Positions 4,138 to 5,172 of a stretch of 27,571 nucleotides of DNA are shown piece after piece. The number at the start of each line of letters is the position of its first letter. Within the stretch, counting starts at the first letter, position 1. The stretch covers positions 1 through 27,571 of IMG/VR virus record IMGVR_UViG_3300004460_000031. One strand, written 5' to 3'. The DNA comes from a virus. Position numbers and translations under genes: made by a program. The notes under the pieces are model-generated. The model saw only the letters and a program-made list of their open reading frames with translations. It was not told where the DNA came from and did no database searches.

Positions 4138-4407
4138 ATGATAGTATTATCAATTGAAAAAGATGCCGTTAAATGGAAGAAATCCGAAAAGAATGGCAAA
4201 GAGTATGCAACAGTAGTAGTAGAAAAACGTAAAGAAAAGGATAAGTATGAGAATACTCATTCAGTATCTAACTCCCAGTCTAAGGAAGAAAGAGCCGAAA
4301 AAAAGAAAAAGGAATACGTTGGCTCTGGTAAGGAATATATCTTTGAAAAAAAGGAATATCCTAAAGCCGTAAATCAGCAAGAATCTGAAGATGATTTGCC
4401 ATTTTAA
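4138..4407 (+). CDS. Small protein with SSB-type acidic C-terminal tip
   Basis: 89 residues. A short beta-like N-terminus (MIVLSIEKDAVKWKK and KEYATVVVEKRKE) is followed by a lysine-rich low-complexity middle and ends in ESEDDLPF. The final DDLPF matches the conserved C-terminal peptide by which bacterial SSB recruits replication and repair proteins. The OB fold of normal SSB (about 110 residues) is too long to fit intact, so this is either a shortened or diverged ssDNA-binding protein or an adaptor that competes for SSB partners. It follows the zinc-ribbon gene by 2 nt and is the last gene before the structured leader RNA. Confidence 0.6.
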   Translation: MIVLSIEKDAVKWKKSEKNGKEYATVVVEKRKEKDKYENTHSVSNSQSKEERAEKKKKEYVGSGKEYIFEKKEYPKAVNQQESEDDLPF

Positions 4408-4427
4408 TGGAAATTAGTTTATATTTG
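4395..4427 (+). promoter_or_regulatory. Promoter for the leader RNA and replication gene (TTTG-N21-TATATTTG)
   Basis: TTTG at 4395-4398 and TATATTTG at 4420-4427 form a Bacteroidota-style -33/-7 pair with 21-nt spacing. The 4-nt spacing between box and mRNA start inferred at other genes predicts the first transcribed base at A4432. That is exactly the first base of the first hairpin of the downstream leader. Confidence 0.6.
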
Positions 4428-4431
4428 CTGG

Positions 4432-4518
4432 AGGTGTAGGATACCTATTTACAAACTTATTGGCTCGAAGCTGAACCCTCAATCCTACTGGGGGGAACGC
4501 CTAGAGCCTTTTTATTTT
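4432..4518 (+). ncRNA. Structured leader RNA with two kissing hairpins
   Basis: The 111-nt gap between 4407 and 4519 has no gene but strong complementarity. Hairpin P1 is AGGT(4432-4435)/ACCT(4443-4446) with the seven-base loop GTAGGAT (4436-4442). Hairpin P3 is CCCTC(4476-4480)/GGGGG(4490-4494) with a loop containing ATCCTAC (4482-4488), the exact complement of the P1 loop. P3 is enclosed by P2, GGCTC(4462-4466)/GAGCC(4504-4508), which is followed by TTTTTATTTT and the ATG of the replication gene. A riboswitch-like leader, an attenuator, or a trans-acting RNA are all possible. I do not match it to a known RNA class. Confidence 0.6.
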
Positions 4519-5172
4519 ATGGCTAAAGACCCTGCTTTTTTATTTTATCCCAATGATTATATTGGTGGTACAATGGGTATGACCTTTGAGGAGAAAGGTG
4601 CATATATTGAAATTTTAATGTTGCAATTTAATCGTGGTCATATGACCTCGCATATGATAGGTCAACTTGTAGGTCAACTATGGGAATCTATTAAGTGCAA
4701 ATTTGTTAAAGATGATGAAGGTTTGTGGTATAATATTCGTTTAGACCAAGAAAAAGAGAAAAGAATGGCTTTTACCCAGTCTAGAAGGAATAATGTTAAA
4801 GGACTTAACCAACATACGATAGGTCATATGACCTCACATATGGAAGATGAAAATAAAAATGTAAATAAAAATATAAATAAAGTTAAAATTATAGATGAGC
4901 AATTTGAGGAATTTTGGGATTTATATGATTATAAGAAATCTAGGGATAAAGCAGAAAAAGCTTGGAAAAGTTTAAATAAAGAAGAAAAGGCTTTAGCTTT
5001 ACAACACGCACCATTATACGTTAAATCAACTCCAGACAAACAATTTAGAAAACATCCTACAACATATCTTAACAACAAAAATTTCAACGATGAAATCATT
5101 GAACGAACTATTAGTACAAAACTCAGCTATGCAGAAATGGAGTGGGAACGTTTCAAAAAGCTTGGACAATGA
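4519..5172 (+). CDS. DUF1376-type phage replication initiation protein
   Basis: 217 residues. The N-terminal 90 match the DUF1376 (YdaU-like) domain: PAFLFYPNDYIGGTMGMTFEE, then GAYIEILMLQFNRG, and FVKDDEGLWYNIRLDQEKEKR. A polar linker (residues 95-122, ending NKNVNKNINK) leads to a C-terminal domain starting FEEFWDLYDYKKSRDKAEKAW, common in phage replication proteins that bind the origin and recruit a helicase loader. The peptide GHMTSHM occurs at residues 40-46 and 102-108, encoded by nearly identical DNA (see repeats). The start ATG 4519 lies 10 nt after the leader RNA. It overlaps the next frame by up to 83 nt. Confidence 0.75.
   Translation: MAKDPAFLFYPNDYIGGTMGMTFEEKGAYIEILMLQFNRGHMTSHMIGQLVGQLWESIKCKFVKDDEGLWYNIRLDQEKEKRMAFTQSRRNNVKGLNQHTIGHMTSHMEDENKNVNKNINKVKIIDEQFEEFWDLYDYKKSRDKAEKAWKSLNKEEKALALQHAPLYVKSTPDKQFRKHPTTYLNNKNFNDEIIERTISTKLSYAEMEWERFKKLGQ
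4636..4656 (+). repeat. Iteron-like repeat, copy 1 (with palindrome GGTCATATGACC)
   Basis: The perfect palindrome GGTCATATGACC (4636-4647) is followed by CTCG-type spacing and CATATG (4651-4656). Copy 2 at 4822-4842 is identical in 20 of 21 bases. Shorter AGGTCAAC elements follow at 4659 and 4671. Confidence 0.7.
4822..4842 (+). repeat. Iteron-like repeat, copy 2
   Basis: GGTCATATGACC (4822-4833), then TCA and CATATG (4837-4842). It differs from copy 1 at one base (A for G). GATAGGTCA precedes it and also occurs just after copy 1. The AT-rich block 4851-4894 starts 8 nt downstream. Confidence 0.7.
4851..4894. other. AT-rich block, candidate DNA-unwinding element
   Basis: Only two of 44 bases are G and none is C. 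AATAAA/TAAATAAA units recur through the block, which encodes the Asn/Lys linker of the replication protein. Lying beside two iteron-like palindromes inside a replication gene, it has the layout of an origin such as lambda ori within gene O. The Asn/Lys linker alone could also explain the base composition. Confidence 0.4.

Follow-up and report, generated by a model that had tools for sequence, protein, structure and literature searches.

The stretch of DNA analysed here (the window) comprises 27,571 nt of a virus record in IMG/VR (IMGVR_UViG_3300004460_000031, positions 1 to 27,571). Directly in front of a plus-strand gene for a replication initiation protein (rep; 4519-5172; PHROG 270 and 9327, weak DUF1376), positions 4432-4518 of the same strand hold a leader with two hairpins whose loops are complementary to each other. 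The first hairpin, P1 (AGGT[GTAGGAT]ACCT, 4432-4446), exposes the word GTAGGAT in its loop (4436-4442). It is followed by a linker (4447-4461), whose 3′ part is covered by the motif AACTTATTG (4454-4462). The second hairpin (4462-4508) consists of the outer stem P2, GGCTC/GAGCC (4462-4466/4504-4508), two inner pairs (4470-4471/4499-4500), a purine-rich internal loop and the inner stem P3, CCCTCA/TGGGGG (4476-4481/4489-4494), which carries the complementary word ATCCTAC in its loop (4482-4488). The T-tract TTTTTATTTT (4509-4518), terminator-like by the tail statistics of related leaders, separates this hairpin from the ATG at 4519. A preliminary description of the window had given these positions and pairings, and all of them proved exact. 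When P1 was folded alone, 2 extra pairs were possible and the loop shrank to 3 nt, indicating that the 7-nt loop would be open only during kissing. Upstream of P1, a Bacteroidota-type -7 promoter box, TATATTTG (4420-4427), ends 4 nt before the hairpin and lies 21 nt after a TTTG (4395-4398), which can be read as a possible -33 element.

The nested fold of the single window sequence was not unusual (z = -1.04; 30 of 200 shuffles folded as well), and with such ordinary stability a lone leader could not have decided whether the fold is real. The full architecture, i.e. P1, an enclosed P3, at least 6 bp of loop-loop pairing and a T-tract, was present in 1 of 200 shuffles. The strong evidence for the kissing fold is comparative. 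Among 83 distinct relatives, which were found by a pattern ignoring the loops, 66 showed Watson-Crick complementarity of at least 6 nt between their own two loops, compared with 0.4% of mismatched pairs combining loops from different leaders. In most of the exceptions the promoter had been folded together with P1 or the second loop had been folded shorter. In an alignment of 14 sequences (A2), with 25 pairs in the aligned core, 97.7% of the cells were paired and the kissing helix was 100% paired in every sequence; in slid controls pairing fell to 38-51%. Both-side changes were observed in 17 of the 25 pairs, a number reached in 0 of 500 shuffles (shuffle mean 7.6), and included 4 of 5 pairs in P1, 4 of 5 in P2, both inner pairs and 4 of 6 in P3; the two loops covaried as well. 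A first MAFFT alignment (A1) was left out of the pair counts, because the loops were misplaced in divergent members. When a covariance model was built from the nested stems only, so that the alignment was made without the kissing pairs, the kissing columns were Watson-Crick at 7 of 7 positions in 37 of 42 distinct rows, with nine different words.

Counted over all families, the loops displayed at least 20 distinct words of 7-9 nt with exact Watson-Crick complementarity, and every position was variable. Examples are GTAGGAT, GTCGGAT, GTCGTAT, GTCGTTT, GTCGCAT, ATGCGAC, GTACGAG, GTACCAG, GTTGCAG, TCCGTACA, GCGGAAT, GGGCAAT, GGGGAAT, CCGGAAT, GTGCGAT, CTCTAAC, CTACTAC, CTACGAC and CCTGCATG, as well as CTGCGAAC and GTACGAAC in the leaders called type B below. 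Part of this list came from a descriptor that required complementarity; the unbiased tests are the set of 83 leaders, A2 and the nested-stem alignment. A search for compensatory changes in relatives had been named beforehand as the check that could overturn the structure; it was run, and the structure survived. The leader structure is close to proven. An inverted repeat or protein-binding site acting at the DNA level was rejected, because the words lie in hairpin loops, both stems covary and the words differ between copies within one phage.

Uncultivated phage contigs yielded more than 100 distinct forms of this leader. Of 80 rep-gene relatives from viral contigs, most had a leader built on this plan immediately in front of the start codon, and AACTTATTG was present in rep-anchored relatives that had been chosen without using it. 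Pattern scans for linker plus tail, or for the type A core, gave at least 119 matches each, and a structural descriptor, run over 3.2 Mb of retrieved loci on both strands, matched 186 times versus 13 times on the reversed sequence. The 119 distinct leaders assembled include a few visible false positives, and no conservation of ACTTATTG or the T-tail was claimed from sets obtained with patterns that contain them. Type A, to which the window belongs, consists of the promoter box, a P1 of 4-6 bp with a 7-nt loop, a linker usually of 13-15 nt, P2, a purine-rich internal loop, P3 with a 7-nt loop, the tail T5-7-A-T2-5 and the ATG. Type B was found in front of a different branch of these rep genes; its P1 comprises 10 bp and a loop of 16 nt, and a plain terminator hairpin of 10-11 bp, pairing with P1 through its loop, serves as the second hairpin. 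Type C leaders precede homing-endonuclease genes and have a longer P1 (ATAGATAG...CTATCTAT). The motif AACTTATTG is common in types A and C and absent from type B. Contig sizes are about 30 kb and extend, among the matches listed for the type C pattern, up to 180 kb.

The leader could not be assigned to a described RNA. Rfam 15 gave no match at the gathering score in the window or in 15 diverse relatives, although the presence of a guanidine-IV model in that release was unchecked, and with E values up to 10 just two snoRNA matches appeared, far below threshold. When leaders of types A, B and C were compared by BLASTN with 50,697 phage records, short partial matches were all that appeared, so that the leader was not found in cultured phages by this search; the rep region gave no BLASTN match. 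The leader pattern had 8 matches in cellular genomes, 0 of them with the structure, and the covariance model had no match in 395 Bacteroidota genomes, a weak result owing to strict filters and the lack of a positive control. No description of such a leader was found in the literature on kissing-loop leaders in Bacteroidota phages, homing-endonuclease-linked RNAs and phage attenuators, in which few subscription papers were covered, so that novelty is not proven.

A box of the form TAnnTT[TC]G (or TTnnTTTG) ended 3-6 nt before P1 in 126 of the 143 leaders sorted as type A; at least 9 of the 143 lacked the usual box and represent type C, using another motif. The promoter had been proposed as TTTG-N21-box. 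Its box was upheld by this placement, whereas the TTTG element was weakly supported, the -33 region of the aligned leaders showing a partial preference for T and G. From the position of the promoter, the 5′ end of the transcript is predicted at or next to 4432. Together with the covariation, the promoter placement backs the description of the element as a structured, promoter-adjacent kissing-loop leader directly before a gene, and the promoter box and the start context point to a Bacteroidota host. Upstream of L245, L246 and L248-L252, a conserved ATATTTATTATAGATAG adjoins the type C P1; it is possibly a phage-specific promoter differing from TAnnTTTG.

The genes behind the leaders are diverse. 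The rep genes have DUF1376-like, Lin1244_N or HTH_36/DnaD-like N-termini; the others encode an N6/N4 DNA methyltransferase, a methyltransferase-looking protein without a Pfam match, HNH and GIY-YIG endonucleases and an AAA/GNAT-like protein. Fourteen leader cores recur unchanged in front of two or more protein starts, and one of these in front of six; in L007, L022 and L024 a methyltransferase-like or HNH gene lies between leader and rep. The leader resembles a cassette that is attached to genes at their start codon, and identical leaders before different genes indicate that it acts in cis whichever gene follows. Different genes behind identical leaders were also the reason for rejecting autoregulation by the rep protein. 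A broader proposal, which we put forward tentatively, is that the leaders are portable, phage-specific and self-kissing promoter-leader cassettes, in which a free choice of the 7-nt loops could give each gene its own non-cross-reacting RNA, and which could control replication, methylation and homing genes in contigs of ~30-180 kb.

In our favoured reading, to which we assign a probability of about 55%, the leader is a cis-acting, promoter-proximal transcription attenuator built from kissing-loop RNA. Transcription would start at or next to the first base of P1, P1 would fold first, and the loop of the emerging second hairpin would be captured by the P1 loop through seven base pairs. The second hairpin and the U-tract would form an intrinsic terminator, as their sequence signature suggests, with the transcript ending a few bases before the ATG. 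Some of the transcripts would stop as an RNA of about 80-90 nt and the remainder would read through and yield protein. Because the short linker must span the kissing stack, loop capture would compete with closing of P2, and kissing would favour read-through, a direction taken by analogy with the guanidine-IV riboswitches. Since the loop words differ freely between leaders and precede unrelated genes, either the RNA itself or a general factor such as polymerase speed or a phage or host protein probably determines the set point. The outcome would be that the dose of DNA-acting enzymes is kept low or delayed. Pairing of the loops is shown by covariation, while the start of transcription at P1, termination and its control by kissing are inferred.

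The terminator part of this reading is drawn from the tails. Ordinary hairpin terminators of the same contigs, for which the search imposed the first five T, continued with T6 in 72%, A7 in 52% and T8 in 78%, whereas T5 runs without a hairpin showed no such preference (A7 31%, T8 36%). The leaders have the T6-A7-T8 preference in common with the ordinary terminators, so that the leader tail resembles a genuine terminator. The median energy of the second hairpin was -18.7 kcal/mol (76 distinct cases), and the plain terminator hairpin of type B, with its loop pairing with P1, likewise counts for an attenuator. Of the three functions considered in the preliminary description, attenuation therefore fits best, since the second hairpin and T-tract carry the terminator signature of these phages. 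Copy control of the replication gene is too narrow, because the same leader, sometimes identical, precedes methyltransferases, homing endonucleases stand behind leaders built on this plan, and a conserved antisense promoter was not seen. A small-molecule sensor is weakened by loops that vary at every position, unlike a conserved ligand pocket. Several observations weigh against attenuation. The second hairpin of type A contains internal loops; a simple terminator scan missed its stem and reported another 5-bp hairpin at 4488-4504, where chance yields as many. The T-run is broken in a few leaders (TATTTTATTTT, ACTTTTAATTT), and no mutually exclusive antiterminator stem was seen. A terminator would also not need a near-constant distance to the ATG, which suggests a role in translation too.

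This constancy makes control at the level of translation the main rival, although we consider it unlikely as the principal function. The leader would control or recruit the 30S subunit in hosts without Shine-Dalgarno pairing, the U-tract serving as a landing site for S1 or as part of a block. The ATG followed the stem by 9-12 nt in 78 of 78 distinct leaders with the type A core (among the matches listed; the tail was not used in finding them). Ordinary open reading frames (ORFs) of the same contigs have an A-rich start context (A at -3 in 57%, at -11 in 67%), which the leader genes lack; in Flavobacterium johnsoniae, adenines at -3, -6, -12 and -13 together with low structure promote initiation (PMC6847099). 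A further precedent is provided by T4-related phages, in which RNA structure at the start site restrains translation of homing endonucleases (PMC3014915). Translation alone leaves the terminator signature next to the stem unexplained, and tail length varies in the second T-run whereas the T-run adjoining the stem is steady. The T4 comparison is also limited: the structures of I-TevI and mobE likewise lie at the gene start (PMC3014915), but they sequester the ribosome-binding site or AUG, whereas the present structure stops short of the U-tract, the predicted fold leaves both U-tract and AUG unpaired, and the promoter stands in front of the whole structure.

A trans-acting small RNA, i.e. a terminated leader that accumulates and pairs through its loops with leaders of other genome copies in a dose-dependent copy control, is improbable. 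One RNA does contain both loop words, and in contigs with several leaders the words all differ (5 of 5 in G007, 2 of 2 in four others), which would avoid cross-talk; yet pairing within one molecule is favoured, and these contigs are too few to prove selection for difference. A minus-strand promoter box within 250 nt after the ATG was found by a box scan in 29 of 186 cases (16%), against 23% expected in random stretches, and is thus not conserved; by the same scan, copy control through an antisense RNA was judged unlikely. A put-like antiterminator, which would bind the RNA polymerase transcribing it and enable that enzyme to pass the leader's terminator and later ones, appears still less probable. 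The put RNAs of HK022 are similarly short phage RNAs (~70 nt) made of two stem-loops, and an early promoter lies immediately upstream of putL (PMC9378689), but kissing is not mentioned in that source and neither a built-in terminator nor a fixed ATG distance is described for put, whereas here every unbiased leader runs into an ATG. The least probable alternative is a stability element, a compact 5′ fold shielding the mRNA from ribonucleases with a T-tract that has no terminator role: P1 begins a few bases past the promoter box and the genes behind are unrelated, but the terminator-like tract and the fixed ATG distance would be unexplained.

Among known systems, the guanidine-IV riboswitches (GGAM-1, with the Gd4v variant) are similar in having two hairpins with loop-loop pairing, a terminator-like 3′ hairpin with U residues and non-homologous genes behind (PMC7736828, PMC11611296, PMC9788692). 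Their 3′ hairpin is the terminator, followed in a Lactococcus lactis construct by U residues and the start codon (PMC7736828); kissing keeps the terminator stem from closing and leads to read-through, while growth of that stem shortens the linker and hinders kissing (PMC7736828, PMC11611296). Two kissing hairpins with a 3′ terminator and U-tract are present here too, the terminator being recognized by its sequence signature, and the working principle may be the same; the short linker suggests the same tension between linker and kissing. Set against the description in PMC9788692, however, all seven loop positions vary here, with at least 20 words, and the leaders stand before different genes and so far in phage contigs only. 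Membership of guanidine-IV therefore fails on the non-conserved loops, and guanidine as the ligand is doubtful. The antisense attenuators of rep genes on the plasmids pT181 and pIP501 resemble the leader in a terminator-like stem-loop directly before the start codon of a replication initiator and in control by RNA-RNA pairing (PMC5703833). Their partner is an antisense RNA from the other strand, for which the box scan gave no conserved promoter here; the partner of the present loop lies within the same leader, and the leaders also precede non-replication genes. The leaders thus form a widespread and strongly covarying class, absent from the Rfam matches and the literature found, that follows the kissing-hairpin-plus-terminator plan of guanidine-IV with freely variable loops. 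Such loops lend themselves to direct tests by loop swaps and might supply many orthogonal regulators. The class points to RNA-level control common to replication initiators and selfish homing endonucleases in Bacteroidota phages, whose gene control is little known.

Some further observations concern individual contigs. In G007, the contig of L160, leaders lie near 2503, 4221, 19697, 22954 and 26469, each before a different endonuclease-like gene. L003 encodes a 382-aa protein (1751-2896) with weak AAA/P-loop-like and GNAT acetyltransferase-like stretches behind a separate leader (GTAGGAT), about 1.2 kb upstream of the leader that serves rep (GTACGAG) in the same contig. Behind the identical leaders (AGGTGTCGGATACCTT...) of L257, L294, L265 and L332, the rep proteins are alike in C-terminal or short stretches (86% identity over 94 aa between L257 and L294) and differ in their N-terminal parts, so that the N-terminal part seems to have been swapped while leader and C-terminus stayed. 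In the window, the 89-aa protein encoded at 4138-4407 has no Pfam match, and its last residues, DDLPF, resemble the acidic tail of single-strand DNA-binding proteins. The rep gene, ending at 5172, and the next ORF, starting at 5090, overlap by 83 bases in different frames.
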